A DNA stretch of 24,190 bases, taken from positions 1 to 24,190 of IMG/VR virus record IMGVR_UViG_3300003690_000212. One strand, 5' to 3'. This document shows, in pieces, positions 2,498 to 23,197 of the stretch (positions within the stretch are counted from its first letter, which is position 1; each line of letters opens with the position of its first letter). The stretch comes from a virus. Under the pieces are notes generated by a model. The model was not told where the DNA came from. It searched no databases and saw nothing but the letters and a program-made list of their open reading frames with translations. The position numbers were made by a program, and so were the translations under genes.

Positions 2498-4072
2498 TTA
2501 CTCCGTTTGTATAATCCCGAAATTTGTAGTAATCAAAGTGCCAGCGCAACTAGCGGCGTTTTGCAGCGCGCAGCGCGTGACCTTCACGGGATCAATTACT
2601 CCACTTTCATATAAATTGGTGAGTTCTCCCTTGCGGAAATCCCACCCGACATCATCAGGCGCATTTAAAACCTGTTCCAATATTAAGTCAGGAGATGCTC
2701 CGGCATTTAATGCCATTTGTCGAATAGGCTCCTTGCATACTTCTTTGATAATCGAAATGCCCAAAGCCTGATCACTGTTGTCCAACGAGGAGAAGTTAAT
2801 ATCTTTGGCTGCGCGCAACAGCGCGGTGCCTCCGCCAGCAACGATACCCTCTTCTTGAGCGGAGTTTACCGCCTCTAGAGCATCTTCAATGCGATGCTTT
2901 TTCTCGGTCATCTCAACTTCCGTGGCTCCTCCGACGCGAATAACTCCCACTCCTGACGCCAAGCGAACAATTCTAGCCTGAATGCTTTCTCCTTCTTGGA
3001 TTGAGTCCGTGGCCTTAATAGTTTCTTTTAGGCTCGCGATCTTATTTTCAATCTCTTCGAAGTCAGCGTTCCCACCAATAATCGTTGTAGTATATTTAGT
3101 GCTCTCAATAGAATTTGCGCTGCCAAGGTGTTGAAGCTTTACATCAGGTAGCTTCACTCCACTTTCACGGGTTATGAAAGTGGCACCTACCGACAATGCT
3201 AAGTCTTGCAATGTGGTACGACGCTCCTCTCCATATGCCGGAGCTTTAATTGCGGCGATCTTTAATGTTCCACGCATAGCATTCATAATCATGGCTGCGA
3301 GGGCTTGGCCGTCGATATCTTCCGCAATAACCACCAAGGGGCGCCCTTCTCTGGCCATCAATTCCAACAAGGGAAGTATAGGCTCAACATTAGAAATCTT
3401 ATAATCACTTACAAAGATGAGCGGCTCCTCATATTTCATGACGGCCCTGCGTTCATCAGTAATGAATGCGCCGGCGCAGTATCCTGCATCAAATCGAAAT
3501 CCCTCGGTGAGATCGAGGGATGTTTCCAGTGAGCGGGATTCTTCTATTGTAATAGATCCATCTTGACCCACCCGATCCACAGCAAGAGCGATAAGCTCTC
3601 CAATTGTAGTATCATTATTGGCCGAAATTGTTGCGATATGTGCAATATCGCCTGTGCTTGTAACTGGTGTAGCCATCTTTTCCAGGTTTTTTGTAATCTC
3701 TTTAACTGCAACTTCAATTCCTCTCTGTAGTTCTATGGGGGATACACCAGTGGCAATGTACCGCTGGGCTTCCCGCAAAATAGCGCGTGCCAACACAGTC
3801 GCGGTAGTAGTACCATCACCTGCGTCAGTGTTTGTTTGAATGGCTGCCTGTTTAATAACTTGGGCAGCCGCATTCTCAAAGGGATCCTCTAACGCAACAA
3901 AGTGCGCGACGGTTACCCCATCCTTTGTAATAAACGGTGTTTGTCCTTTCTCTTGGAGAAGCACATTTCTTCCGCGGGGTCCTAAAGTGGATGCCACATT
4001 GTCGGCTAATATGTTAACGCCGTTCATGATCTTCTGCTGTAGCTCTGTTTGGCTATTATAAGCTCTGCTCAA
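2498..4072 (-). CDS. groEL: Phage-encoded GroEL chaperonin (Hsp60)
   Basis: A 524-aa group I chaperonin, nearly full length (bacterial GroEL is about 548). GroEL forms a double heptamer that folds client proteins in an ATP-driven chamber. Family signatures are intact: GRNVLL near 35, ITKDGVTV at 48-55, the ATP-binding DAGDGTTT at 83-90, VEMTEKKHRIEDALEA with the catalytic Asp, and EEGIVAGGGTALL in the C-terminal equatorial part. The apical domain spans roughly 190-375. The protein stops shortly after LITTNFGI, so the flexible Gly-Gly-Met tail of bacterial GroEL is absent. The start is TTG 4072, with a GAGGT Shine-Dalgarno 5 nt upstream; the next Met would remove conserved residues. A consensus sigma-70 promoter lies just upstream (4093-4121). 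It leads the left-hand gene run and presumably works with the GroES-like protein at 19556-19837. Confidence 0.97.
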   Translation of the reverse strand: MSRAYNSQTELQQKIMNGVNILADNVASTLGPRGRNVLLQEKGQTPFITKDGVTVAHFVALEDPFENAAAQVIKQAAIQTNTDAGDGTTTATVLARAILREAQRYIATGVSPIELQRGIEVAVKEITKNLEKMATPVTSTGDIAHIATISANNDTTIGELIALAVDRVGQDGSITIEESRSLETSLDLTEGFRFDAGYCAGAFITDERRAVMKYEEPLIFVSDYKISNVEPILPLLELMAREGRPLVVIAEDIDGQALAAMIMNAMRGTLKIAAIKAPAYGEERRTTLQDLALSVGATFITRESGVKLPDVKLQHLGSANSIESTKYTTTIIGGNADFEEIENKIASLKETIKATDSIQEGESIQARIVRLASGVGVIRVGGATEVEMTEKKHRIEDALEAVNSAQEEGIVAGGGTALLRAAKDINFSSLDNSDQALGISIIKEVCKEPIRQMALNAGASPDLILEQVLNAPDDVGWDFRKGELTNLYESGVIDPVKVTRCALQNAASCAGTLITTNFGIIQTE

Positions 4073-5624: not shown

Positions 5625-6266
5625 TTATATAATAATGTCGGCAATACCTAGTTCGACTGCTTCTTCTGCTGATAAATAGACATTAACTTTGCGTTCGAGC
5701 ATCTTTTTCAATCGCGATTTAGTCAGTTTTGTTTCTGACACCAAACAATCAATGAACATTTGTTGTTGTTGTTCAATGGCTTCCATTTCATTCAGCATGT
5801 TATGCAAGTCCCCCTGGTTGCCACCCACGACTGAATGAATCATAACGCGGCAGTTTTTTCCAATCTTGCGTTCGCCCTCTGTGCCGGCGGCTAGGATCAA
5901 TACTCCTGCTGACATTACCTTACCCAAACCTACAGTATGAATAGGCGTCCGTTCGCGTACCATCCTTATCACATCATAAAGAGCAAACATATCATCACCC
6001 GAACCTCCATAGGTAGAGATATAAAAATCAATAGGCTCTATATCTTCCGGGTCTTTGTGCTTGTTAATATCGTTAGCATACAAAAGCGCATGTACTAATT
6101 CTCCTATTTTCTCTTCTACTACTTCTGCGAATAGTCCCACCATAGGAGACGCTTCTTGTTCAGGTTCTTTTAGTTGGTCAGGATCAAAAAAAATTAAATT
6201 CTTTTTTTCATCTTCGTCTAAGTTAGTAACAAAAGGAGCCAGCGCTTTCTTAATGCGTTCAATCAT
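5625..6266 (-). CDS. clpP: ClpP-like serine protease with a Ser-His-Asn triad
   Basis: A 213-aa ClpP-family protein. ClpP subunits form tetradecameric barrels that degrade unfolded proteins delivered by AAA+ partners; some phage relatives process heads. The oxyanion region YGGSGDD (86-92), nucleophile Ser119 in KVMSAG and His144 in VMIHSV are present. In the handle/active-site block before LSAEEAVELG, the residue matching E. coli Asp171 is Asn195. A Ser-His-Asn triad is known in Listeria ClpP1, so activity is possible but may be conditional. The N-terminus carries about 40 extra residues before the ClpP core. ATG 6266 has an AGAGGG site upstream and overlaps the preceding membrane-protein gene by 8 nt. 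No ClpX/ClpA ATPase lies in the window, so a host unfoldase or independent action would be needed. Confidence 0.93.
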   Translation of the reverse strand: MIERIKKALAPFVTNLDEDEKKNLIFFDPDQLKEPEQEASPMVGLFAEVVEEKIGELVHALLYANDINKHKDPEDIEPIDFYISTYGGSGDDMFALYDVIRMVRERTPIHTVGLGKVMSAGVLILAAGTEGERKIGKNCRVMIHSVVGGNQGDLHNMLNEMEAIEQQQQMFIDCLVSETKLTKSRLKKMLERKVNVYLSAEEAVELGIADIII

Positions 6267-7707: not shown

Positions 7708-8034
7708 TTATAAGTCTGGGTGCTCTTTGGCAATCACGTCAAATATATCTACCAACTGTTGTTCGGATAATCCTAAGTCGCGCGACCTTTGAGATCCGGT
7801 ATTTCTTAGTGTGGCCGTTTTGGCTTTACGTACTTTTGATTGCGGCTTAACTTCGTCAATATAAGACAGAATTCTATCGTCTTCTTCGAGATAAGCCGTA
7901 ATAATATGACGAAAAAAAGCGGATTGTGATAACCCATCTTGACGCAACTTTACGATCAATTTTGCTTGGCGATGATCGTTGTCTGTAAATACAATTTTCT
8001 TGGTTAGTTTACCATAATCAATCTCATTGGACAT
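7708..8034 (-). CDS. Small basic/helical protein, ribbon-helix-helix-like segment
   Basis: 108 aa from ATG 8034 (MSNEIDYGKLTKKIVFTD). I prefer this ATG to the one at 8040 because it forms a TAATG stop-start junction with the IMPDH-like gene and has GAGG about 9 nt upstream; the earlier ATG is too close to that site. Residues about 10-48 read KIVFTDNDHRQAKLIVKLRQ, then DGLSQSAFFRHIITAYL: a strand followed by two helices with the S-x-x-FFR pattern common in ribbon-helix-helix DNA-binding proteins. The middle is Lys/Arg-rich (KVRKAKTATLR) and the C-terminus is an acidic helix ending EHPDL. A transcriptional or DNA-binding role is inference. It is the last gene of the nucleotide-metabolism run. 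Confidence 0.7.
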   Translation of the reverse strand: MSNEIDYGKLTKKIVFTDNDHRQAKLIVKLRQDGLSQSAFFRHIITAYLEEDDRILSYIDEVKPQSKVRKAKTATLRNTGSQRSRDLGLSEQQLVDIFDVIAKEHPDL

Positions 8035-9062
8035 TACCATTTCCTCGTTAAAATATGAGTGTGGCTTTCAGATAAACCAGAAGGACTTTGACGCACAAAT
8101 TCAGCCTTGAGTTGTAGTTCCTCTATGGAACGTGCACCAGAATAAGAAAATCCTGATCGAATGCCCTGGTTGAGATCTTCTAAAATATCCTTAACTCGTC
8201 CTTGATATGGAACACGCGCAGATACTCCCTCAAAAGACGTATATTTTCCGCGCCATTCGGTTTGAGCTTCTTTGCTGGCCATTCCTCGATAAGACTTCCA
8301 TGTGCTGCCATCGGTGTCCCGTTGAATTTCGCCTGGGGTTTCTGAGGTGCCGGCCAATAAAGAGCCACACATTGCTGCATTCGCGCCGCACGCCAAAGCT
8401 TTTACAATATCGCCCGAGTTTTTAATTCCCCCGTCTGCAATGATGGTTACATCTCGATCCGTTTCGGCACAATCGAGAATAGTCTGCAAGCCAGGAAGCC
8501 CGTGACCGGTTTGAATTCGTGTAGAACAAATTGATCCACCCCCAATATTACAGCGTACTGAATCTGCACCCCAATCGGCTAAATCATTAATGCCTTCCAA
8601 AGTAGCAACGTTTCCTGCCATAATATGAAAGTTATCTCCAAAAATTGCTCGAAGCGATTGAAGGGCGGACTTTACTAATATATGGTGGCCGTGGGCTACA
8701 TCGATGCATATAAAGGTTGCGCCTGCATCAAAAGCTGCTGTGGCGCGTTCGATATATTCTCCAGTTACGCCAACTGCGGCGCCTACGTGGCCAAATTCAT
8801 CCATGTTATCCGTCACGCGCTTAATGTGCCGTTGTTGTTCAATAATAGTATTATATCGATGAATGACGCCCGCGCCACCACGAAGTGTCATAGCCATGGC
8901 CATAGGACTTGCTGTTACTGTGTCCATCGGAGACGAGAGGAGGGGCGATTTAAGAATAAGGCCATTTCCAAGGTCGGTGCTAATGTCAATCTCGGTGCGC
9001 GATTTAATATCGGAGTATTGTGGGACTAGAAGTATATCATCATATGAAAGAGAATTACTCAT
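8034..9062 (-). CDS. IMP dehydrogenase/GMP reductase family enzyme, closer to GMP reductase
   Basis: 342 aa from ATG 9062 (MSNSLSYDDILLVPQYSD). An upstream in-frame TTG at 9077 lacks homologous sequence and support. This family interconverts purine nucleotides: IMPDH oxidises IMP to XMP, GMP reductase converts GMP to IMP. It has the YDDILLVP start, the LLSSPMDTV block, nucleotide-binding GGGSICSTR with catalytic Cys179, and ADGGIKNSGD. The terminal block is YRGMAS then FEGVSARVPYQG then GIRSGFSYSGA. No CBS domain is inserted, and the IMPDH flap Arg-Tyr pair is not evident. The region after YRGMAS and the EG-V-x-G segment align better with GMP reductase. It overlaps the thioredoxin gene by 8 nt. 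A role in purine salvage for dNTP supply is inferred. Confidence 0.9.
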   Translation of the reverse strand: MSNSLSYDDILLVPQYSDIKSRTEIDISTDLGNGLILKSPLLSSPMDTVTASPMAMAMTLRGGAGVIHRYNTIIEQQRHIKRVTDNMDEFGHVGAAVGVTGEYIERATAAFDAGATFICIDVAHGHHILVKSALQSLRAIFGDNFHIMAGNVATLEGINDLADWGADSVRCNIGGGSICSTRIQTGHGLPGLQTILDCAETDRDVTIIADGGIKNSGDIVKALACGANAAMCGSLLAGTSETPGEIQRDTDGSTWKSYRGMASKEAQTEWRGKYTSFEGVSARVPYQGRVKDILEDLNQGIRSGFSYSGARSIEELQLKAEFVRQSPSGLSESHTHILTRKW

Positions 9063-9426
9063 TTTGTCCACCCTCAATAAAACTTTTAATGTCTTTAGAA
9101 TAAAACCATGTCATTTTGTTAGGAGGATCAGGATCCTGCAAGTGCTGAATACTCAGCCGCTTGTCTCCATTTTTTATCATTATAATGCTCGGCACCCCAT
9201 GGAATCCTAATCGGCCTTCAACAGAAAGATCGTCTTCAATATTGAAAGCAAAAAAATGTAAATTTTCTCCATCGCTATATTGATTAGCAAGGTCTTCATA
9301 GTAGTCTTTTAAACTATGGCAGTAGTGACAATTATTGGCATAAAATTTAACAATGCACGTAGCTGTATCTTCGAAGCGTCCTTCTATAATTTTATGAAGT
9401 GCTTCCGTTGATAATCGTTCAACCAT
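9055..9426 (-). CDS. Thioredoxin-like protein with CHYC active site
   Basis: A 123-aa thioredoxin-fold protein. The redox motif C33-H-Y-C36 sits in VKFYANNCHYCHSLK after the first strand, and the cis-Pro loop GVPSI (Pro79) is present, as is the FAFNIEDD strand. Length and layout match a stand-alone thioredoxin. The dipeptide between the cysteines (HY) differs from thioredoxin GP and from glutaredoxin PY, so its redox potential and partner are uncertain. The natural client in this window would be the class II ribonucleotide reductase at 19848-21815, whose C-terminal cysteine pair needs re-reduction; that link is inference. It overlaps its neighbours by 8 nt on each side, indicating translational coupling. 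Confidence 0.92.
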   Translation of the reverse strand: MVERLSTEALHKIIEGRFEDTATCIVKFYANNCHYCHSLKDYYEDLANQYSDGENLHFFAFNIEDDLSVEGRLGFHGVPSIIMIKNGDKRLSIQHLQDPDPPNKMTWFYSKDIKSFIEGGQNE

Positions 9427-9677: not shown

Positions 9678-9998
9678 TTATAGATTCAATTCCAACATGG
9701 CTGCATCACTTAAGAGATGCATGCCCCATTTCGGTTCGAATACAACATTAATAATGGCTTTCTCAATACTGACCAATTCTTCTACTTTGGCTTTAACTTC
9801 TACTGGCAGACTTTCAGCCACCGGACAATTAGGCGACGTTAAAGTCATTACAATTTCTACGATCTTATTGTCTTGAAGGTTAATTTCGTATATAAGGCCT
9901 AACTCATAAATACTTATGGGAATTTCCGGATCATAAATTGTTTGCAAAACTCTCACGATTTCTTTAGCTCTTTCGGTCATCTCTTTCTCTTCCATCAT
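9678..9998 (-). CDS. MIP18/DUF59 (SufT/PaaD-type) Fe-S cluster assembly protein
   Basis: 106 aa covering the whole MIP18 domain, which helps deliver iron-sulfur clusters to target proteins. Signature elements are IYDPEIPISIYELGLIYEI (about 21-39) and MTLTSPNCPVAESLP with the conserved Cys58. The WGMHLLSDAAMLELNL end is typical of SufT-like proteins. The start could be either tandem ATG at 9998/9995 or ATG 9980, where the domain proper begins; I keep 9998 because it overlaps the methylase stop as ATGA. It sits among redox and DNA-modification genes. No obvious Fe-S enzyme is encoded nearby (the reductase here is B12-dependent), so a host Fe-S protein or an enzyme outside the window is the likely client. 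Confidence 0.9.
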   Translation of the reverse strand: MMEEKEMTERAKEIVRVLQTIYDPEIPISIYELGLIYEINLQDNKIVEIVMTLTSPNCPVAESLPVEVKAKVEELVSIEKAIINVVFEPKWGMHLLSDAAMLELNL

Positions 9999-12158: not shown

Positions 12159-12764
12159 TTATTTAAAATCAAACCTAACGCGGGCTTCGATCTTCAATGT
12201 AGGAATGTGTAGATGATTAGCGAGATTGTGCTTTAAACACTCATCGGCTTCTAAAAACCAGTCTGCATGTCCTTTCTCGTGAATGATGTCCAAAAAATAT
12301 TCTTCATGATGACCACAGTTTTTAGCCATCATCTTATAAACTTTTTGATTGAGTCTCTCGGTTTCTTCGGCGTCTGCTTTAATCTCTTCTACTTTTCCAA
12401 TGGACATCGATGACACATCATGAATCATTAAGGTGGCGTCCGGGTCCATATGGCGGTACCCTTCAGTACCAAAGCTAAAGAGTAACGCGCCACAGGACAT
12501 AGCTTTGCCTTGAACAATCGTAGCCACAGTAATGCGTGACGTCCGGATATCAGCAACCATAGACATCAAACTATAAACTTGTCCGCCGTAGCTATCAATA
12601 ATGATCGGCACTACAGGTTGTCCCGTGTTATGGGCTTTGCTCATTTTCTCTGAAAATTCTTTTGCGGCTGCTTCATCAAACTTTTTAACGCGAATGACAA
12701 TAGGCAAATCATCAATAAGCTCTTTGTCTTTTAATAGTGGACTGAAGTTTGTGATGACGTTCAT
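12159..12764 (-). CDS. clpP: ClpP-like serine protease with a complete Ser-His-Asp triad
   Basis: A 201-aa ClpP-family protein, the second in the window. The oxyanion strand IIIDSYGGQVYS (54-65), nucleophile Ser90 in KAMSCGALLFSFG, His115 in TLMIHDVS and Asp168 in GHADWFLEADECL reproduce the classic triad. Sequence identity with the protein at 5625-6266 is low outside motifs, so the two are old paralogs or separate acquisitions. The N-terminus is short, with no obvious propeptide, and the C-terminus is basic-acidic. It sits 1 nt from the sigma-like gene and 13 nt before the J-domain gene. A co-transcribed protease plus co-chaperone suggests turnover of selected host or phage proteins (inference). 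Confidence 0.93.
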   Translation of the reverse strand: MNVITNFSPLLKDKELIDDLPIVIRVKKFDEAAAKEFSEKMSKAHNTGQPVVPIIIDSYGGQVYSLMSMVADIRTSRITVATIVQGKAMSCGALLFSFGTEGYRHMDPDATLMIHDVSSMSIGKVEEIKADAEETERLNQKVYKMMAKNCGHHEEYFLDIIHEKGHADWFLEADECLKHNLANHLHIPTLKIEARVRFDFK

Positions 12765-12765
12765 A

Positions 12766-13443
12766 TTAGTAATTATTCTCTTTCTGAACTTTACGATAAA
12801 GAGGACGCAAATATGCCTTTAGTGTCCATGCAATTTGCTTGGTGGTGACTCCTGCACAACCTCTTATCAATAAATATAAGGCTTTCTTCTTTATTGTTGT
12901 TTCATCAAGACTCTTAATAGTGCTCATCACGCGAAGAATGACTTCGGTAGTGGTTTTTTTATATTTACCTTCTGCTATTTCGCTGGTGGCTGCTTCAATA
13001 GCAGGAATCAATTTGTTATAATAAAATGCCTCTTTTTCTGTGCGTTCCTCTTCATCTACACTATTAATATACAAAGAGTGATGCATGTTTATCCATTGTT
13101 GTTCCATCTCTTGTCCTACCATCAACAGTGTCTTCTTGCTTTTGTTATAAGTTCTGGACACTCCGCAAAAATAATGAAACGCACACGCACTTAAGTAAGA
13201 AAATGTTCTCCCTTTCTTCTTGTCATATTTATATCTTAAGCATTCCCATAGATGAGAAATACACCCATCAATAACCGCTCGACTCCGATAGAGAGAAACT
13301 GGTTTAAATTGCTTCCCTCCGCATACTCCATATGTTATTTCTCGCAAGAGGGGATAGATTTCTTCTTCGAAAAGTTGTTCATCATTGGTCTTTAAATACT
13401 GCTGTACCCGCTTTTCTTGATGCGGTCCATAATAAATTCCCAT
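12766..13443 (-). CDS. Sigma-factor-like protein (phage late sigma type)
   Basis: 225 aa from ATG 13443 (MGIYYGPHQEKRVQQYLKTN), which lies 2 nt after the polymerase stop. The TTG at 13497 used by a longer frame would overlap it. Residues about 60-110 read CISHLWECLRYKYDKKKGRT, then FSYLSACAFHYFCGVSR. This pattern of an acidic/basic helix, a K-x-x-K-G-x-x-FSYL turn and an aromatic helix resembles sigma region 2 (core binding and -10 recognition) as found in T4 gp55-type late sigma factors. The C-terminal region (about 180-225) is helical and basic, with TTKQIAWTLKAYLRPLY, compatible with a small DNA-binding end. The call rests on region 2 alone and is moderate. Confidence 0.75.
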   Translation of the reverse strand: MGIYYGPHQEKRVQQYLKTNDEQLFEEEIYPLLREITYGVCGGKQFKPVSLYRSRAVIDGCISHLWECLRYKYDKKKGRTFSYLSACAFHYFCGVSRTYNKSKKTLLMVGQEMEQQWINMHHSLYINSVDEEERTEKEAFYYNKLIPAIEAATSEIAEGKYKKTTTEVILRVMSTIKSLDETTIKKKALYLLIRGCAGVTTKQIAWTLKAYLRPLYRKVQKENNY

Positions 13444-13445
13444 TT

Positions 13446-15386
13446 TTATCCCAGCAGCCGAAAGTTGTGGCGAATAGATCGAGTTGAAAAACCCCAATCA
13501 GGATCATACTCTAGCCGAGACATGTAAGGCCGGTTAACAAAAATCGTATCCTTTTCGGGTCGTACTCCCCAACAGCGAATTCGCGTGAGTTCGTTATTGC
13601 TATCAATAACTTCTATAATCCAATAAAGTTTTCCATTCTTGGTTTTCCGGGAGATAATCTTTCTGGGAATAAACCAACATAGCTGGACGTGGGGATCAAA
13701 TTCAGAAATCGGAGGAACCAACTTATCTTGGAGCTTCTCAATCGTATCTGTATCAATAACCAGATTAAGAGGAAAGATTCCCGTAAGATCGGTTTTAAAT
13801 TGAATGATCTCTTCTTCGGTAAAATCTCCTTCGGGCTTATACCTTTCCATGTTCTCGACCAATTTCTTCAACGTCTTAGGTCGGTCGACCACACACGCTG
13901 ACCAAAAGTGCTTGCGTCCTGTAAAGCGATCATCTATAATACCATCGAGGGCGCCGCCGCGGCAAAGAGCATCCAACGCTTTCTTGTTAAACTTGCTGTA
14001 AGAGATCCCTTCACGAAATAATAAATCTTCTGCATTCTTAAAGGGCCGATGGTTAAGAATCTGTTCGATTGCGGACATGCCGAGTCCCTTGATAGAAGTC
14101 AATGGCTGAATGAGAGTCTTGCCGTCTGCGCTAATCTCCCATACTGTGCCTGACTTGTTGATATCCAAGGGCTCGATTTGAAAGCCGTACTTCTTTGCAA
14201 TGTTGATAGCCTTTTCTTTTCTAGTCTCGGGCTCTTTGTCCAAGAAGGCGGCCATCCACTCAGAAGGATAATAATTCCACAGCCATGCACACTGATAAGA
14301 GATAATGCTATAACTCACGGCGTGCGACTTGTTAAAGCCATAGCCGGAGAAATATTCAAACTTATCCCAAAGTGATTCGGCCGCATCACGAGTGATCCCG
14401 TTGGCTGCACATCCGTCAACAAACTTAAGGTGAAGCTTGGTCTTGATGCCGCCTTTACCTGTGCCCTTTTTGGTGAGAACTTTGCGGAGCATATTTCCCT
14501 CGTCAAGAGTTAGGGCACCAAGTTTATGTGCCAGCAGTGCGATTTGCTCTTGGAAGATGAGGAAACCAAATGTTTCTTCTGTAATCTCTCTCGCTTCTTC
14601 CGATAGATACGATACATATTGCGGATGGTTCTTTGCTTCTATGTAATCAGCATCGACTCCGGCCGACAAGGGGCCAGGACGGAAGATCGAGGTTACCGCT
14701 GAAATATCGATAAGACTTGTCGGTTTTGCTCTAGCACAAAAGCCTTGGGCACCTTGTTCAGTAAACTGAAAGACGCCGGCCCATTTGCCCTTATGAAAGA
14801 TATTTTCATAAACTTCCTGATCATCAAAATCCAGTATGTCCGGATGAATATGCTCGTTATAAAACTCCAATACGTCTTCAAACGTAGGCTCTGCAATGCC
14901 ATGATGTCGGCGCAAGATATGTTCAATACATCCTTCCATCATCTTTAAGGTCGAGAGCCCCAATAAATCAAACTTAATGAATCCCATGGGCTCCAAGTGA
15001 CGGACGTTCTGTCCTTCGCTCCAGGGCGACTGGCGAACTCCTCCCGAATTAATAAGAGGCATATGACGGTCTAGATCTTCTGCAATGACAACGCCCCCGG
15101 CATGCCGACTGCATGACCGCACTTGGCCTATAAGACCTTCAACGCGTGCTTTAACTTCGGGATAAGTCTGTAAAAACTTTTGTAGGGTAACAGAGTATTC
15201 CATCACCTCTTCCCAAGTGGGTGTGTATACCCCGGCTTTAATGCCGTGCTTCTTTTTGGCTTCGGGCATTGCTTCTCGCATCATCACGCTGGTAACGTTA
15301 TTAACCTCCGTAAAAGGAATGCCATAGAGCTTCGTCACCCCACATCTCAACCAATCTTTCTTTAAGTTCCATGCTATCTGACACAT
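13446..15386 (-). CDS. dnaE: DNA polymerase III alpha-like, C-terminal part (palm end, fingers, HhH, OB) in a shifted frame
   Basis: A 646-aa frame; similarity to DnaE begins only around residue 19 (KLYGIPFTEVNN), so the first residues (MCQIAWNLKK) are out-of-frame translation of the upstream part. It contains SRHAGGVVIA (93-102), the third catalytic Asp140 in GFIKFDLLGL, fingers VFQFTEQGAQGF and IFRPGPL, and FGFLIFQEQI. FSGYGFNKSH is the site that carries the split intein in cyanobacterial DnaE; it is uninterrupted here. Then come helix-hairpin-helix SIKGLGMSAIEQI and an OB-fold near the end. It lacks the conserved FGTM.A..A.RDVGR-type segment between the two frames. Either the gene is broken or the assembly lost about 20 codons. 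Confidence 0.9.
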   Translation of the reverse strand: MCQIAWNLKKDWLRCGVTKLYGIPFTEVNNVTSVMMREAMPEAKKKHGIKAGVYTPTWEEVMEYSVTLQKFLQTYPEVKARVEGLIGQVRSCSRHAGGVVIAEDLDRHMPLINSGGVRQSPWSEGQNVRHLEPMGFIKFDLLGLSTLKMMEGCIEHILRRHHGIAEPTFEDVLEFYNEHIHPDILDFDDQEVYENIFHKGKWAGVFQFTEQGAQGFCARAKPTSLIDISAVTSIFRPGPLSAGVDADYIEAKNHPQYVSYLSEEAREITEETFGFLIFQEQIALLAHKLGALTLDEGNMLRKVLTKKGTGKGGIKTKLHLKFVDGCAANGITRDAAESLWDKFEYFSGYGFNKSHAVSYSIISYQCAWLWNYYPSEWMAAFLDKEPETRKEKAINIAKKYGFQIEPLDINKSGTVWEISADGKTLIQPLTSIKGLGMSAIEQILNHRPFKNAEDLLFREGISYSKFNKKALDALCRGGALDGIIDDRFTGRKHFWSACVVDRPKTLKKLVENMERYKPEGDFTEEEIIQFKTDLTGIFPLNLVIDTDTIEKLQDKLVPPISEFDPHVQLCWFIPRKIISRKTKNGKLYWIIEVIDSNNELTRIRCWGVRPEKDTIFVNRPYMSRLEYDPDWGFSTRSIRHNFRLLG

Positions 15387-16821
15387 CGTAATCGATATCC
15401 GGATAGTCTGTCGCGTCCGAGCGCAGAAAGCGTGAGAACAGAAGGCCGTACTTAATAGGGTCGACTTGAGTAATACCTAATGTGTAAGCTACAAGAGAAC
15501 CAGCCGCAGATCCGCGGCCCGGGCCGGCGAGCATTCCTTTGGTTGCCTCGTCAGCAATAGCCTTCATGGTCAAGAAATACTTGGAAAATCCTCGGTCATC
15601 AATTACATCTAGTTCTCGCTTTAATCTCGCCAAGTATTCTGGGTTTTCGTTAAGTCCTTTTTGACGGAGGCCTTCGAGTGCATAGTTAACTAATGCTTGC
15701 GTGGCTGTGGTGCCTGCGGGTACCACAAAATCAGGAAGGCGTACCGTTGTGTCTGGAAAGAAGCTTTCGATGCGTTGGTGTGCGATATGATACGTTTCCG
15801 TAATACTGTTCATTACCAGTTCGTCATCATACTCAAAGCCTGCGCTCTCACAGTAATTCTGATAGCTCTCCCACATTTGATCACCATTCTTCGGATACAG
15901 TTCATATCCAATTTCCTCTACGCCCTCGGGGAATTCTGCTCCCTCACCCCAGGATGGGGTTCCTTTTCCAAGCCATCCTAGGCGCTTGTATAGCTCTCTA
16001 TCCTTCCACGCGGTAGGGCTCGGGTAGTGGCTATCGGCTGTGGAAATCAGCTTCATATTAAACTCTTCGGCAATCTGAATGATGAGCTGGTTAAGTTCGT
16101 GCTGTTCTTTAATGTTGTTCCACTGTAGCTCGCCGTACCAGCGATCTCCAAAGACTGCTTGCATGCGACGTGTGGTATCACGCATGGCATCGAGGGTGGC
16201 ATCACGGTCAACACCGGTGCGGTTGCCCTCATCATCATAAGTGCCGTTGTCCCAATAGTTACCGGCATAGACGCCACCGAGACATGCTGACGCAGCGATG
16301 ACTCCTTCACCATATTTCTCAAGCAATGCATAATCCATGCGAGGATAACGATAGAAGTTCTGGCTCTTGTAGCTCTCTGAAACCAACTTGAAAAGGTTAT
16401 TAAGCCCAGTTTGGTTTTGTGCCAATAGAATAAGGTGGCGGCGGCGGCGCAAGAGGCCTTGAACTTTCTTACTGTCTATTTCATCCTCTACGGTTGCTCC
16501 CGAAGCAGCAGCTTGTTTGGCACTTCGGGCGCGCTTCTTGTCGGCCATGGCGACCTCATATTCTGTTCGCCACTCTTCGATGGACGGGATAAAGTACGCC
16601 TCCACACCAAAGATGGGTTTAAAGTCTTTGCCCTCTTCGTGCATCTTCTTGGCATGCAGAACCTGTCCCGCTAGTCCGTTCATGTTTCCATGATCCGTGA
16701 GCGCTAACGCATCGCTCCCGTTCTCAAAAGCAAAATCCATATGAGCATCGGGGTAACCGATTGCATCAAAAATGGATCCTGCTACACTGTGGGCGTGTAG
16801 CCCTACGAATTTAATCATCAT
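15301..16821 (-). CDS. dnaE: DNA polymerase III alpha-like, N-terminal part (PHP and palm start)
   Basis: 506 aa from ATG 16821, with GGAG 6 nt upstream and its own promoter at 16845-16873. This is the replicative polymerase family of bacteria. The PHP domain (about 1-280) has H9-x-H11, LTDHGNM at 41-47 and GVEAY at 72-76, so metal ligands seem present. The palm begins with GPGRGSAAGSLVAYTLGIT and carries the catalytic aspartates in DYPDIDYDV (about 472-480). The reading frame then diverges after MWGDE and ends ALWHSFYGG-stop. The remaining polymerase continues in the frame at 13446-15386, overlapping by 86 nt. Together the two cover a full-length DnaE minus about 20 conserved residues at the junction. 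Confidence 0.93.
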   Translation of the reverse strand: MMIKFVGLHAHSVAGSIFDAIGYPDAHMDFAFENGSDALALTDHGNMNGLAGQVLHAKKMHEEGKDFKPIFGVEAYFIPSIEEWRTEYEVAMADKKRARSAKQAAASGATVEDEIDSKKVQGLLRRRRHLILLAQNQTGLNNLFKLVSESYKSQNFYRYPRMDYALLEKYGEGVIAASACLGGVYAGNYWDNGTYDDEGNRTGVDRDATLDAMRDTTRRMQAVFGDRWYGELQWNNIKEQHELNQLIIQIAEEFNMKLISTADSHYPSPTAWKDRELYKRLGWLGKGTPSWGEGAEFPEGVEEIGYELYPKNGDQMWESYQNYCESAGFEYDDELVMNSITETYHIAHQRIESFFPDTTVRLPDFVVPAGTTATQALVNYALEGLRQKGLNENPEYLARLKRELDVIDDRGFSKYFLTMKAIADEATKGMLAGPGRGSAAGSLVAYTLGITQVDPIKYGLLFSRFLRSDATDYPDIDYDVSDSMELKERLVEMWGDEALWHSFYGG

Positions 16822-17713
16822 TTAAATCTCCCTCTCTATATGGTAATTTAACATATTTATGCGCCTTTGTCAAGCTATTTGAAGGTTTTTGAATAAAGTT
16901 TTCCGAACCCATAAATGCTTGATATTGTTGCCATTTGGAAATGTCATAGTACCAATCAAGCTCTACCCGGTGGGCATCTTTTTCATTGACTTTCCCAAAG
17001 ATAGTGTCAAAATCAAACTGGCGCGCAGACCATCTTTCTAAAAGTGGCAATTTTTTTTGGGGATATTTTTCATCAGGGCCGGGATTGATATATTCGCGCG
17101 TTGTGGTCTTGTTGACATGACGCCGACAATGAATATAATCGTCGCCGAACATTGTGAAAGGAAGAGGAACATTATCTTTTACACTCTTCCCCTCATGGGT
17201 TAAAAAAAAGTTATTTTCAAAATCTGAAATTTTTGGGCGCAAAATTCTTAGCGAATACACATTATAGGCATTCATCGGAAAGGCCACAAAATACTTATGC
17301 GGTACTACCCACTTAGATATTATATTAGCTACTCTCCAGGCTGAATAGACTCCATACAAGGCTGACCAGCCATATGAGTCTCGACGGTCACGATCTTTAG
17401 GATGAATAGGCACATAATATATAGGGATCTCTTTGCGATGTTCACTCGGAAAAATGCTGTGCTGACGATAAAAATACACCGGGTCGTACACCCATTCTCC
17501 TACTATTTTTTTGACGATGGGCGCAAGGTCATCGTTGGCTACAATCCAAATGGTCTGACAGCCGGCGACAGCACATTCGAATACAGCCTTTTGAATCGCA
17601 GTGAAGCCGGGATCAACCGGGGTCAAGCAGGCAGGCGTGGATAAATCAAAATCTGTCTGTAGGTTAGCAAGCGGTATAATCCCTGCTAAATGTATGTGTC
17701 TGCCGGCACTCAT
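16811..17713 (-). CDS. Nucleotidyltransferase-like conserved phage protein
   Basis: A 300-aa protein. The N-terminus HLAGIIPLANL, then TAIQKAVFECAVAGCQTIWI followed by VANDDLAPIVKKIVG, has the beta-strand/loop/helix/strand layout of sugar-1-phosphate nucleotidyltransferases (GlmU N-domain type). The G-G-x-G-T-R phosphate loop is missing, replaced by PLANLQTDFDL. The middle has PIYYVPIHPKDRDRRDSYGW and the Phe/Tyr-rich FVAFPMNAYNVYSLR. A glycan-related or nucleotide-binding role is inferred; activity is doubtful. Start ATG 17713 overlaps the upstream partner by 4 nt (ATGA). The 3' end overlaps the polymerase start by 11 nt and contains the polymerase promoter. Confidence 0.8.
   Translation of the reverse strand: MSAGRHIHLAGIIPLANLQTDFDLSTPACLTPVDPGFTAIQKAVFECAVAGCQTIWIVANDDLAPIVKKIVGEWVYDPVYFYRQHSIFPSEHRKEIPIYYVPIHPKDRDRRDSYGWSALYGVYSAWRVANIISKWVVPHKYFVAFPMNAYNVYSLRILRPKISDFENNFFLTHEGKSVKDNVPLPFTMFGDDYIHCRRHVNKTTTREYINPGPDEKYPQKKLPLLERWSARQFDFDTIFGKVNEKDAHRVELDWYYDISKWQQYQAFMGSENFIQKPSNSLTKAHKYVKLPYREGDLNDD
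16845..16873 (-). promoter_or_regulatory. Promoter for DNA polymerase, embedded in the preceding gene
   Basis: TTGACA (16873-16868), 17-nt spacer, TAAATT (16850-16845) with TGT extended -10 on the minus strand. The -35 is perfect and the -10 is 4/6. It lies inside the last codons of the nucleotidyltransferase-like gene, 24 nt before ATG 16821. The spacer also contains CATAAATA, close to the T4-type late-promoter core, so late control is an alternative. Confidence 0.7.
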
Positions 17714-18591
17714 AAACTATCTAAAAATCTATTGTATCCCACACAAGCTGATGGTAAAGTCTGGAGTAAATCTTCTTCATTAATCTCCGGCACTTCAACC
17801 GTCTCGATGGATGGCTGTGGGCGTGCCAGTTGCGGGCTTCTCTCGCGGCCAATGATAGTTGTTCTAAATTTGTAATATTTAGGCCTCCCAGTGGGCGAGT
17901 AGCCATTAAAGAGTCCTTTCATGCCTCGGTTCTCCATCTCAGCCAGCATTTTAAAGCGCGCCATCGTTTGAGAATAGTCAAACTCTAAAAGCTCTGCTTC
18001 TGTGAGGTGAGAAACTACACAAGCATCCTTAACAGGAGAATTCCCGTCAACGCGATCTGTAGGGAAAAACCAGATGTGTTTGACAAAATCATCGGGCGTT
18101 TCAATGAAATCAATTTTATGCTTGCCTCCACGATTGAACGCTATCCAATCATAACATATGTACCGGGGGTTGGCAACTCTTTTTTCCTTGACGAGCCCTG
18201 TACACTGTGGGTCTCCAAAGTAGAACGCCTTTTCAAATTTGATCTCGGCTATTTTTGAGTATTCGTTGGAGCACACCAAGGTTTCTCCATTGTAGCGTAG
18301 GCTCTTGCAGAGGGTGCTTACAGGCGCGCGGCCAGCCAGCGCAGTAAGAAACAATAACCTCTCCCACACTAACATTTTGGCAGCTCCGACGTTAATGTTT
18401 TCTGCGTGAGTGGTTAGATGGCGGACATCATTGTCCAACTGAATGCAAGACATATCTAAGTCAAGGTTCAGATAATCAAACCGAAAAGGAGGTTGCGAGA
18501 CCGTAAAAAAAATAGGGAGTTTGTTATGGAAGGCATATAAAACTGCCGTTAAAGTACTCCCGATTACTATCTCTGCATATTCATGAATCAT
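17710..18591 (-). CDS. Conserved phage protein of unknown function paired with the nucleotidyltransferase-like gene
   Basis: 293 aa from ATG 18591 (MIHEYAEIVIGSTLTAVLYA), coupled to the amidase stop by an 11-nt overlap. A GTG at 18624, preceded very closely by GAGGAGG, would add 11 residues and overlap the amidase by 44 nt; it is the alternative start. The N-terminal strand-glycine-helix (EIVIGSTLTAVLYAFHNKLP) resembles a Rossmann dinucleotide-binding entry but lacks GxGxxG. Later blocks include LWECL-like VWERLLFLTALAG, SNEYSKIAEIKFEKAFYFGD, DWIAFNRGGKHKIDFIET and MENRGMKGLFNGYSPTGRPK, all soluble and strongly patterned as if under tight selection. No catalytic family is recognised. The 4-nt overlap with the next gene suggests that the two proteins act together. 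Confidence 0.78.
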   Translation of the reverse strand: MIHEYAEIVIGSTLTAVLYAFHNKLPIFFTVSQPPFRFDYLNLDLDMSCIQLDNDVRHLTTHAENINVGAAKMLVWERLLFLTALAGRAPVSTLCKSLRYNGETLVCSNEYSKIAEIKFEKAFYFGDPQCTGLVKEKRVANPRYICYDWIAFNRGGKHKIDFIETPDDFVKHIWFFPTDRVDGNSPVKDACVVSHLTEAELLEFDYSQTMARFKMLAEMENRGMKGLFNGYSPTGRPKYYKFRTTIIGRERSPQLARPQPSIETVEVPEINEEDLLQTLPSACVGYNRFLDSL

Positions 18592-19537
18592 CTGCGCAGA
18601 CTTCGCTGGCGCTACTATATCCACTATCCTCCTCTTCTTCTACTTCCTCTAGAAGGGCTTTAATATCTAGACCTGCGCAGTCTTTCTTGGTTTTAGAAAC
18701 ATGATAGTGACTGACGAAGCCTTTAAAATCTCCATACTTTACGTGCTGGGCATAGTTGTTGTCAGTGTTACCGAATTGATTCAGGGGAGCAATATATGGA
18801 ATGTCTAATCCCTTATGAATAGCTTTCCATAGTTGTTTGAGAGCACGAATCTGTACCGGGTAAAATCCCAGAAAAGGCTCCAGTTCTGTGCTTTGACAGC
18901 GCATTCCTTCTAAAATAGGTCTTTCTCCATGGCCGTTTCTTACATACCACTCTTGATATTTAGGATAGTATGCATTTGAAATCTCAACTCCCACCGAGGC
19001 ACGGTTGGCGCGGGTACTACCGGCATGCCAACAGCCATGCTGCATATCAATGGTTTGGTAAATGGTTCCATCATTATCGATCAGAAAGTGCACAGAAATA
19101 CCTCGATTGTTTAAAACTTTTTGACAAGAGGCGGAATTGAGGCATACGTCCCAATGGTTTACAAAGTAACGAATGGCTCGGGTTGGCCGGCCACTATAAT
19201 CATAGTGTGTCCCGGGATTGGCTTTAAGACCACCGTTCTCCGACCACAGCACTACTTTATCCCACTCAATAGGAATAAAGCTGCCATTAAAAACGATATA
19301 ATTAGAATAAGTAGGGGTGTCGGGCTTATACTCATCAATATCTACTTGGCGTTCGGTCCAGATGCGACGGAAGGTCATGGGCCCTACTAAGCCATCAGAA
19401 GTAAGAGTATGAGCGCGTTGCCATTTCTTAACTGCTCTAATCAGCTTGTCGTCATAAAATTTCTCGCCAAACCATGTTGGATCCCAGCCTAAATTGGCTG
19501 CAGATGATTCATTATAAAAGTTTTTATCGATTGGCAT
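18581..19537 (-). CDS. N-acetylmuramoyl-L-alanine amidase with peptidoglycan-binding domain (endolysin type)
   Basis: A 318-aa cell-wall hydrolase. An N-terminal peptidoglycan-binding-1 module (about 13-60: LIRAVKKWQRAHTLTSDGLV, GPMTFRRIW) is followed by a type 2 amidase/T7-lysozyme-like domain (about 118-292). Zn ligands and catalytic residues are visible: His128 in FVNHWD, CWHAG at 169-173, VGVEIS at 182-187, and His277/Lys285/Cys287 in SHYHVSKTKKDCAG. It cuts the amide between MurNAc and L-Ala, typically for lysis. There is no signal peptide or membrane segment, so a holin elsewhere, or use as a virion enzyme, is needed. The C-terminus is an acidic tail (EEVEEEEDSG). ATG 19537 has AGAGG 10 nt upstream. 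Its position among early-type genes, beside GroES, is unusual for a lysis gene. Confidence 0.93.
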   Translation of the reverse strand: MPIDKNFYNESSAANLGWDPTWFGEKFYDDKLIRAVKKWQRAHTLTSDGLVGPMTFRRIWTERQVDIDEYKPDTPTYSNYIVFNGSFIPIEWDKVVLWSENGGLKANPGTHYDYSGRPTRAIRYFVNHWDVCLNSASCQKVLNNRGISVHFLIDNDGTIYQTIDMQHGCWHAGSTRANRASVGVEISNAYYPKYQEWYVRNGHGERPILEGMRCQSTELEPFLGFYPVQIRALKQLWKAIHKGLDIPYIAPLNQFGNTDNNYAQHVKYGDFKGFVSHYHVSKTKKDCAGLDIKALLEEVEEEEDSGYSSASEVCADDS

Positions 19538-19555
19538 ACCATTATGACCTCTCTA

Positions 19556-19837
19556 TTACTTCCCGACAATTCCTATAATATAATTATCTAATACTATATT
19601 AATCGTCTGGTTTTTAATATTAATTTCCTCGACCATTGTTTTATCTACCACGATTTGCGTGCCTACTTTTAAATTTTCCTTGAAGCGAACATCATTAGCC
19701 CAACTAATAATCTCCGCAGTTACATAACGTTCTTCTTTGGGCTTAAAATCCGCCGGTAACATGATTCCACTTTCAGTCGTGTGCTGTGGGGGAGTAGGGA
19801 GCCGAATAGAAACATATCGATTCACTGGATTAAACAA
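19556..19837 (-). CDS. groES: GroES-like co-chaperonin
   Basis: 93 aa, about the size of GroES (97), which caps the GroEL chamber as a heptamer. The beta-barrel pattern starts RYVSIRLP. The mobile loop HTTESGIMLPADF carries G-I-M-L at 24-27, matching the GGIVL GroEL-contact motif. LKVGTQIVVDK (56-66) matches the GDxVxFxK strand, and IVLDNYIIGIV is the C-terminal strand. Start TTG 19837 is chosen because AGGAGGTG ends 4 nt upstream, overlapping the ribonucleotide reductase stop. The first residues are then MFNPVNRYVS. It lies 15 kb from groEL (2498-4072), an unusual separation for partners, and downstream of a perfect in-gene promoter at 20250-20278. Confidence 0.88.
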   Translation of the reverse strand: MFNPVNRYVSIRLPTPPQHTTESGIMLPADFKPKEERYVTAEIISWANDVRFKENLKVGTQIVVDKTMVEEINIKNQTINIVLDNYIIGIVGK

Positions 19838-19841
19838 ATAT

Positions 19842-19849
19842 CACCTCCT
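19842..19849 (-). promoter_or_regulatory. Strong ribosome binding site fixing the TTG start of groES
   Basis: AGGAGGTG on the minus strand, 4 nt from TTG 19837. It shares two bases with the reductase stop codon (19848-19850), so groES translation is probably efficient despite the weak TTG initiator. Confidence 0.85.
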
Positions 19850-21815
19850 AAATTGTGCATGTGTCATTTGTACAGAATTTAGTGCCGTTTCCACCCTGCT
19901 CGTCATGAATACGATTAATCGGAGTGATGGCACTTGTCATTTTTTCATAAGTCTCTTGAGTAATAGCTTCATAAGGGGCTTGTTCATACCCTGTTTCCTC
20001 AAGCTTGAGGAAAGAGACAGCTTTCAAGCGTGTCTCATACATTTCGAGAGCATCTTTAATTTGAGACGCTTCTTCTTCTTTGAAAGTAACTGTAACAGAA
20101 ACAGAATTATCAGCCCAATAGTGTTGGTACTGCGCGGCAATTTCTAATTGTTCCCACATTCCTACGTCTTGTTTCCCTTTAGTAAAATGGGGCTCGTATA
20201 CTGGAAACTCTACAACCATAGTGCGGGGGGAGTACTTATCCTTTTCTACATTATATCCTGATTTCTTAAGAGTGTCAAGAATTGTAGAATCTTGAGAGAA
20301 ACGAATGCGTCGAATATAATATTCGGCTTCGGGAAAATGAATGCCCGGAGTTGATCCATTAAGAAGAGATACTGTCCCGGAGGGCTTAATAGATGTAGTA
20401 CGCACCGACTTAGGAATACATAACCAGTTAGAATATTCTTCATCCAGCGCACTAATGGCTTCGTAAGCTGTGTCGCACCATTCATACATGCGCCGGCGGC
20501 CGTGCTTAGTGAAGGCTTGGACGACGCCCGATTGTGACAATCCAATGCGTCTGTTCTTAAGCATCTTGGCGTTTGTTTCTGGCCAATGAGTATTAGAAAG
20601 GGTGATCGTCTTGCCATAGAGATAGGCGATCTTTAATGTTCTCAAATAATCTTCTAGATTTTCATGTTTGGCGGGAAAAGTTTCTACTAAACAACAAAGC
20701 TCAGCATCTTCTAGCTGTTGTTCGACACAGGGGTTAAAGCCCGCAACATTAACATCATCCAGCCGGATTCCATCTTTAAATCGGCCGCGGGTGCGGGCAT
20801 TTTCTAACCAAATGTAGCCGGGCTCTCCCTTCTTTTGGCTCTGCTGAGCATGCCATTCATAATCCATCCCTACCACCGCATTGAAGGAGTTATTAGAACC
20901 CCAGCGGTGGTGGTAAAGCTTTTCATCATCGTTTTTCATTTCGAGATAATGTTTATCATCATAACGGCCCATGGCCAACGCAGCAGACCGCCGTACATTG
21001 CCGGACACAACACAGCGACCAATAAGATTTTCAGTATCTACAATGTCCACAGACGTGATAGTCTCTCCAAGCCGAGGGCTGTACAAGGCACTTAAATTCT
21101 CATGTAACTCCTTAAGGGGGCCCGCGCCACTCGATGTGCCACCAAATCCATATATGGGGGCGCCCTCTGCACGAATAACAGAATAATCAAACTTCGGTAC
21201 CTTCCCTCCAAAGAAAAATCCATCCAGGAGAAGGTGAACCGAGTCCACCCATCCTTCCCGGGAATCATCAATGGCGAGGGTGTCGTTGGTATACTGGGGC
21301 TCTTTAATAATAAGAGAGCCGGCACCTTCGGTATCAAACCCAACACCAATCCCCAACATTAAAGCATCCATCATCCACGCAAACAGATAACCCCCTTTGT
21401 TAGCCAGATCTTTGGTAGAACGAAACGCACAATTAAATAATCCCGCTGCTGTTCTTTCTTCTACAAACTTGGTGCCCATCATCCAGAGGCCGCGGCCGGG
21501 GGGAGTCCACTTGAGATTAAACAAACGAATATAAGCTTCTTTGGCTGTACGTTGAGCCTTTGCATCGTTCCATTCGAGACCCAGATGAAACACATGCGCT
21601 TTCTGCATATCAAACATTCCTTCGATGACGCGCTTGCATGTCTGCCACCATTCCTCGGATCCTGTGGCCTCAGAATCAAATTCACTAAGGCGTCGTGAGT
21701 ACGTGCGCTTAAAGGTAACATATCCCAGCGGCCCCCATGGAACGTCTTTAGTTTTGTAAGGCTCCAGGAATGTATCGGATAATCTGAATCTACGAATGTT
21801 GTCTAATGTTCTCAT
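19848..21815 (-). CDS. nrdJ: Adenosylcobalamin-dependent (class II) ribonucleoside-triphosphate reductase
   Basis: A 655-aa monomeric class II reductase, related to the Lactobacillus leichmannii enzyme (739 aa). It reduces ribonucleotides to deoxyribonucleotides using a thiyl radical generated from B12. The start has VTFKRTYSRRL, with WWQTCKRVIEG. Substrate cysteines are Cys129 (LFNCAF) and Cys374 or Cys375 in AELCCLVE. The radical Cys363 and Glu365 sit in NPCVE, where Val replaces the usual Gly. The tail ends FCTNDTCTI, a Cys-x4-Cys pair with the same spacing as the leichmannii re-reduction cysteines, to be recharged by a thioredoxin. No ATP-cone is visible. It lies 5 nt after the helicase gene. 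A perfect sigma-70 consensus lies inside it at 20250-20278. Confidence 0.96.
   Translation of the reverse strand: MRTLDNIRRFRLSDTFLEPYKTKDVPWGPLGYVTFKRTYSRRLSEFDSEATGSEEWWQTCKRVIEGMFDMQKAHVFHLGLEWNDAKAQRTAKEAYIRLFNLKWTPPGRGLWMMGTKFVEERTAAGLFNCAFRSTKDLANKGGYLFAWMMDALMLGIGVGFDTEGAGSLIIKEPQYTNDTLAIDDSREGWVDSVHLLLDGFFFGGKVPKFDYSVIRAEGAPIYGFGGTSSGAGPLKELHENLSALYSPRLGETITSVDIVDTENLIGRCVVSGNVRRSAALAMGRYDDKHYLEMKNDDEKLYHHRWGSNNSFNAVVGMDYEWHAQQSQKKGEPGYIWLENARTRGRFKDGIRLDDVNVAGFNPCVEQQLEDAELCCLVETFPAKHENLEDYLRTLKIAYLYGKTITLSNTHWPETNAKMLKNRRIGLSQSGVVQAFTKHGRRRMYEWCDTAYEAISALDEEYSNWLCIPKSVRTTSIKPSGTVSLLNGSTPGIHFPEAEYYIRRIRFSQDSTILDTLKKSGYNVEKDKYSPRTMVVEFPVYEPHFTKGKQDVGMWEQLEIAAQYQHYWADNSVSVTVTFKEEEASQIKDALEMYETRLKAVSFLKLEETGYEQAPYEAITQETYEKMTSAITPINRIHDEQGGNGTKFCTNDTCTI
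20250..20278 (-). promoter_or_regulatory. Perfect sigma-70 promoter sequence inside the reductase gene, upstream of groES
   Basis: TTGACA (20278-20273), exactly 17 nt, TATAAT (20255-20250), all on the coding strand. It reads through codons for ILDTLKKSGYNVE. The expected start is near 20243, about 400 nt before groES. Both hexamers and the spacer match the groEL promoter. That favours a real internal promoter, although coding constraint alone could produce it. Confidence 0.6.
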
Positions 21816-21820
21816 GCTGC

Positions 21821-23197
21821 TTATTTCCTTTTTAGTTTGGAGTATTTCTCTCGCAATAATTCTTGTTGTTGTTTAACTCCGAGCGCTACTGGTGTAGTTG
21901 CAATTGAATTAAGGCCCGTAGGCATCGGTGGTTTGGGAAGAATTTTAATCTTTACGTAAGAAGGGTCCATAAAGATGGGATAAACAATCCCATCGGGGCC
22001 ATGTCTGTTCTTAGCAATAAAAATCTTTCCTTGATTGTTTTGTTTATCTTCGATAGTGCGCGACACAGAAAAAATAAAATCTGCCACGAAACACTTGCTA
22101 AATGCTTCGGAGATCTGTTCCATTGTAATCACTTCTGCATTTAAACCAGAGCGATTCGTTTGGGAGGCTGTCCAAATGGGGAATTTAAACTCGGTAGCCA
22201 GGGCACGAAGTTCCTCATAAATAGATTCGAGTTCGTTTCTCTTCTCTTTTCTTATTACAGTCGGCTTTAAAAGATCTGCATAGTCTACAATTACTAAGCC
22301 GGGCTTAATACCCCGCTTGATTAAGCGAGATAAATGAGAACGGATCGTATTAGTAGTAGCAGATTTGGTAGGATATTCTTTAATAATAAGAGAGCCTTCC
22401 ATATCTTTAATCGCCTCGTATACTTCTTGCTTAAAAGTAATAATATCAGAGAGGGGATAGCCTGTCAAACAACTATCATAGCGATTAGCAATGACAGTAT
22501 CTTGTAGTTCAAGAGTATAATGAATAACTGTCTTCTCTTCTTTGAGAGCCTCGGTGCCCAAATGAACCAAGGCCATTGACTTCCCGGCGCCCGTAGGAGC
22601 AATTACTACTCCGAGTTCCCCTTTGCCTAGGCCTCCACCACAAACACCATCAATCTCTGTCCATCCTGTGGATACCGGTTGGCGATGTTTCGGTTGAAAT
22701 CTTATTTCAAAATCAGCAATATAATCATATCCAAAGTTGTTATCTGATCCGAGCTTGAGTGCATTATTAATAACTGTAGAGATCTCATCGAAAGAACAAT
22801 TTTGAAGGAGTCCTACCGACTTCATCATGGCTTCTTTGAGATTCTGCTTGCGGCAAAACTCCAACGAGACATCTTTAATGTATTCTGTGTCTGTTAGCTC
22901 GCGCGCGTGGATACGAGCGAAATATTCTCTGACTTGGGTTTGTGTTACCTCGTCCTCGTTCTCTAACTCTATACGCAGAATAGTAATCATTGCTTCTACA
23001 GAAGGATGGGTATTATATTTGTCGCGATAGGTTGTTATTTTACTAACAAAAACTCTAAGGTACTCTAACTCTAAAAATTCTATATCTAGTACTTCGGTGA
23101 TCTGATCGGCGAAAGGCCTATCTTCAAAGATCAACTGCACTAAGCCCTCTTGGAAGGCTTTTCCATACCTTCCAAAGTGTGCATTTTTAGATAACAT
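21821..23197 (-). CDS. DnaB/gp41-like replicative DNA helicase
   Basis: A 458-aa hexameric RecA-fold helicase that unwinds DNA at the replication fork. The N-terminal helical domain spans about 1-170. The core begins with STGWTEIDGVCGGGLGKGEL. Walker A is APTGAGKS (200-207), the catalytic Glu230 is in YTLEL, Walker B is LVIVDYADLL (301-310), and the H3-like FPIWTASQTNR follows. A final basic tail (LREKYSKLKRK) may contact the primase or polymerase. It resembles the T4 gp41 branch more than host DnaB because the N-terminal domain is divergent. ATG 23197 has AGAGGG 4 nt upstream and a promoter at 23223-23250. No separate primase or helicase loader is visible in the window. Confidence 0.93.
   Translation of the reverse strand: MLSKNAHFGRYGKAFQEGLVQLIFEDRPFADQITEVLDIEFLELEYLRVFVSKITTYRDKYNTHPSVEAMITILRIELENEDEVTQTQVREYFARIHARELTDTEYIKDVSLEFCRKQNLKEAMMKSVGLLQNCSFDEISTVINNALKLGSDNNFGYDYIADFEIRFQPKHRQPVSTGWTEIDGVCGGGLGKGELGVVIAPTGAGKSMALVHLGTEALKEEKTVIHYTLELQDTVIANRYDSCLTGYPLSDIITFKQEVYEAIKDMEGSLIIKEYPTKSATTNTIRSHLSRLIKRGIKPGLVIVDYADLLKPTVIRKEKRNELESIYEELRALATEFKFPIWTASQTNRSGLNAEVITMEQISEAFSKCFVADFIFSVSRTIEDKQNNQGKIFIAKNRHGPDGIVYPIFMDPSYVKIKILPKPPMPTGLNSIATTPVALGVKQQQELLREKYSKLKRK
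22440..22468 (-). promoter_or_regulatory. Near-consensus sigma-70 promoter inside the helicase gene
   Basis: TTGACA (22468-22463), 17 nt, TATTAT (22445-22440), with a TGA extended -10 on the minus strand, inside codons for LTGYPLSDII. Expected start near 22433, about 620 nt before the reductase start. One mismatch in twelve; a chance origin is possible. Confidence 0.45.

Follow-up and report, generated by a model that had tools for sequence, protein, structure and literature searches.

A DnaE-type polymerase gene interrupted by a 65-nt gap in one uncultivated phage contig

A gene for a DnaE-type replicative DNA polymerase lies in two reading frames on the minus strand of the contig IMGVR_UViG_3300003690_000212 (16821 to 13446, interrupted between 15335 and 15334). 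This raises the question of whether the virus has a split polymerase or whether part of a single gene is missing from the contig. The window, i.e., the whole stretch of DNA that was analysed, is 24,190 nt long.

The interrupted gene and the segment it lacks

The gene comprises the following features:
15301..16821, minus strand: N-terminal DnaE part, 506 aa, with PHP and the first half of the palm
13446..15338, minus strand: C-terminal DnaE part, with the rest of the palm, fingers and HHH; homology from KLYGIPF
15334..15335, minus strand: deletion junction, 65 nt of the relatives missing

The N-terminal ORF contains PHP (5.5e-27) and covers positions 3-112 of the 260 in the Pfam palm profile (DNA_pol3_alpha, 4.6e-33), while the C-terminal ORF (13446-15386, 646 aa, in a different frame) covers positions 147-260 of the same profile together with DNA_pol3_finger (7.7e-32) and HHH_6 (9.4e-14); the intervening stretch is thus absent. 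The domain order of DnaE-type (C-family) polymerases is found across the two ORFs (PF02811, PF07733 and PF17657; PHROG 405); the palm is not continuous, since the contig lacks 65 nt and with them the conserved segment that follows the first catalytic Asp motif. In the N-terminal ORF, homology with relatives runs through EMWG(DE) and is followed by nine out-of-frame codons (ALWHSFYGG) and a stop. It picks up in the C-terminal ORF at KLYGIPFTEVNN. The latter ORF is listed from 15386, but up to its 16th codon it reads the N-terminal half out of frame; the frames of both halves overlap by 86 nt (15301-15386). A sequence-only reading had described this arrangement, with one frame that follows DnaE to EMWGDE and ends nine codons on, a second that restarts out of phase, and a conserved block lost between them; the ORFs and the alignments of the relatives confirm it.

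In two scans of IMG/VR, whose lists share many contigs, near relatives were found at 160 loci; the best show 94-95% amino acid identity with both halves: residues 1-499 of the N-terminal ORF are 95% identical to L081-L083 and the C-terminal ORF is 94% identical to L001-L003. The uncultivated phages represented here (L081-L083, L085, L090 and others; PHROG 405) have the same gene in the same neighbourhood, but theirs is a single ORF that includes the 21 residues lost in the window. All fetched relatives that span the site carry the block at a constant position within one unbroken ORF (read directly, ..EMWGEDCVAPISNWNTLQLRSLIKDISKLYGIPF.. is one frame), and where the ORF is under 1,000 aa it runs up to a contig end. 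The site is absent from three loci (L038, L047 and L097) and one (L093) stops before the block. Related phages that naturally lack the segment in one frame, as the sequence-only reading had envisaged, were not found among the fetched relatives spanning the site, nor was a split at the same site found in the fetched relatives.

Pairwise alignment with L082, the nearest relative, over 13446-22821 (9.4 kb, about 87% identity) has a single gap, 65 nt long, at 15335/15334, and the identical gap appears against L090, L085 and L086. It is absent from every relative compared. Since 65 nt are 21 codons plus 2 nt (3x21+2), the frame shifts and 21 whole residues are lost, shortly after the catalytic DYPDIDYD motif. 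The measured length fits the earlier estimate of a deletion, real or artefactual, of about 60 nt and not a multiple of three. The missing residues were absent from every frame of the window, where the best meaningful tblastn matches were the two flanks, so that a frameshift alone is insufficient, as had been proposed.

The lost block is highly conserved: in a comparison of 95 distinct genes, 19 of the 21 positions reach at least 98% invariance, the remaining two being a Cys (91%) and a Lys/Arg position. It aligns gap-free to the DNA polymerase III alpha of Taq (PDB 2hpi) VAQIGTFGSLASKAALKDVAR. The phage family has the missing segment within EDCVAPISNWNTLQLRSLIKDIS, homologous to EDKVAQIGTFGSLASKAALKDVAR of the Taq enzyme; EDCVAPISNWNTLQLRSLIKDISKLYGIP pairs gap-free with EDKVAQIGTFGSLASKAALKDVARVYGIP, shortly after the catalytic PDID.D motif. 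The sequence-only reading had named an absent block of about 20 residues of the type QI.TFGTM.A..A.RDVGR; the Taq alignment bears out the homologous segment, but the letters differ in this family (VAPISNWNTLQLRSLIKDIS). Bacterial DNA polymerase III alpha (Taq; E. coli, PDB 2hnh) shares the order of PHP, palm, fingers and HHH, but is cellular, distantly related and intact. Given how conserved it is and what is generally known of C-family polymerases, the palm segment would be needed for catalysis. The gene of this lineage is a DnaE, and the copy in the contig is broken.

Split genes and recoding

Two separately translated halves might assemble into a polymerase that dispenses with the 21-residue segment, and such an enzyme would overturn ideas of what the DnaE palm requires. 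In favour of this, each half is a long open frame that remains under purifying selection, and elsewhere there are annotated phage DnaE genes that consist of two CDSs. However, all spanning relatives keep the segment, nearly invariant, and it aligns without gaps to the Taq enzyme beside a catalytic motif. The start of the C-terminal ORF also lies out of frame inside the N-terminal half, and nothing in relatives corresponds to its first 16 codons; no ribosome-binding site was seen by eye at this start. Because the block is near-invariant in the single ORF of the relatives and the lesion is found in this contig only, a functional split polymerase, one of the options first put forward for this locus, is unsupported and very unlikely.

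In the annotated split genes the break is much further downstream, around residues 657-728 of P0001. In Bacillus phage vB_BauM_KLEB27-3, dnaE is encoded in two CDSs with an HNH endonuclease between them, and in Rossellomorea phage phiT1 the two CDSs are separated by a small ORF. Both are broken around the inserted ORF rather than by loss of a conserved block, and in phiT1, the one inspected for it, the N-terminal half retains the TFGT block (ITFGTLGARGVIRDVGK); this is a different phenomenon from the gap in the window. Among the titles and abstracts found in literature searches on split phage dnaE and on assembly chimeras, none was directly relevant.

Two further candidates were rejected. A naturally split gene does not fit halves that fail to make up the whole protein, the block being absent, with no relative split there and no inserted ORF at the break. 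A split intein does not fit either, as only nine extra codons follow the N-terminal half and the Pfam scan gave no intein domain.

Programmed frameshifting or bypassing could join the frames within their 86-nt overlap and so fuse them into one protein. Even so, the conserved block would be missing from the product, as the sequence-only reading had pointed out, since it is absent from the DNA of the window, and the relatives have one frame and need no recoding. We consider this extremely improbable.

Origin of the gap

We favour an assembly or sequencing artefact, which is probably the source of the gap. On this reading, the replicative DNA polymerase of the lineage would be a DnaE-type enzyme of the usual kind, made as a single chain, and the contig, rather than the virus, would have lost the 65 nt through an error made when a mixture of related phage strains was sequenced or assembled. 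Consistent with this, the gap is the only one in 9.4 kb against L082 and breaks the frame of a gene whose block is kept, with 19 of 21 residues near-invariant, in one ORF of the spanning relatives. The genome also keeps genes for a DnaB-type helicase, a class II RNR and an exonuclease, which makes a dead polymerase in its consensus unexpected.

The gene is otherwise intact and under purifying selection. Compared with L082, dN/dS is 0.023/0.82 (about 0.028) in the N-terminal half and 0.026/0.98 (about 0.027) in the C-terminal half, and these ratios, both about 0.03, point to strong purifying selection on the two halves. With L085 as the outgroup, amino acid changes specific to the window and to L082 number 9 versus 8 in the N-terminal half and 11 versus 11 in the C-terminal half. 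With L087 and L089, the N-terminal half has some excess in the window (17 versus 3 and 12 versus 6), which may reflect a mosaic tract in that half, and the C-terminal half has none (11 versus 12 and 12 versus 9). By these counts, selection is not clearly relaxed in the N-terminal or the C-terminal half and window-specific changes are in no consistent excess, which fits an artefact; any real deletion must therefore be recent.

The 28-mer across the junction had no match elsewhere in the viral contigs searched, and neither did 27-30-mers flanking it on both sides, although near-identical records may lie outside the searched set. Thus, neither an intact nor a deleted copy from the same strain turned up. 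The unmatched words are compatible with an artefact, and the presence of the deletion in no second contig argues against a real one.

Sequence similarity to the relatives changes at the junction:
15180..15337, minus strand: mosaic tract, closer to L090 than to L082, beginning at the junction, about 158 nt

Along the gene strand, L082 is for the most part the closest relative up to the junction, while from 15337 to 15180 the sequence is L090-like at 22 of 25 informative sites, compared with 176 of 601 gene-wide (0 of 5000 shuffles). The tract is near short-read length, which is in keeping with a chimera. However, equally strong or stronger tracts occurred in more than half of 52 other intact genes used as a control, and we therefore do not take the switch of parents at this point to prove a chimera. 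Tracts of similar size are common in the gene family, and the dnaE of the window has a further one (16177-16402, minus strand), which is nearer to L092 than to L082 and has no deletion. Recombination within dnaE is common across these phages. The coincidence of tract and junction is compatible with either an assembly chimera or natural recombination, proves neither, and is weak evidence for a chimera.

The same coincidence and the frequency of recombination in dnaE would also suit a real, very recent 65-nt deletion that inactivates the polymerase of the sampled virus, possibly by illegitimate recombination between related phages. The removed DNA is non-repetitive and was removed cleanly; the junction shows no repeat or clear microhomology that could account for a collapse, which counts against an artefact. 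Moreover, a real variant virus would give an identical consensus. Such a deletion would nevertheless knock out an essential gene, although the aligned 9.4 kb contain no second indel and selection is not clearly relaxed in either half, and we regard it as possible but doubtful. If the deletion is real, the genome would belong to a defective virus within the population, or would depend on co-infection or the host enzyme. The preferred reading, an artefact, serves as a warning that one indel confined to a single metagenomic contig can mimic a gene split; comparison with relatives resolves most such cases.

Other genes in the window

Between dnaE and a ClpP gene lies a gene for a 243-aa protein of no known family (12766-13497, minus strand). 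It is missing from the nearest relatives L081-L083, and among the fetched loci only L079/L145 (one contig) has a relative, at 47%. By eye, the protein resembles a phage sigma-like factor, for which it is a candidate. The window encodes two separate ClpP-family proteases (5625-6266 and 12159-12764, both minus strand), as well as a GroEL-like chaperonin (2498-4072, minus strand; Cpn60, 9.5e-67) and a GroES-like co-chaperonin (19556-19837, minus strand; Cpn10, 3.4e-06) about 15 kb apart. It also contains a full-length gene of the IMP dehydrogenase/GMP reductase family (8034-9077, minus strand; 3.2e-104) and an iron-sulfur cluster assembly gene (FeS_assembly_P; 9678-9998, minus strand), with a thioredoxin-like gene and a Dam methylase close by.
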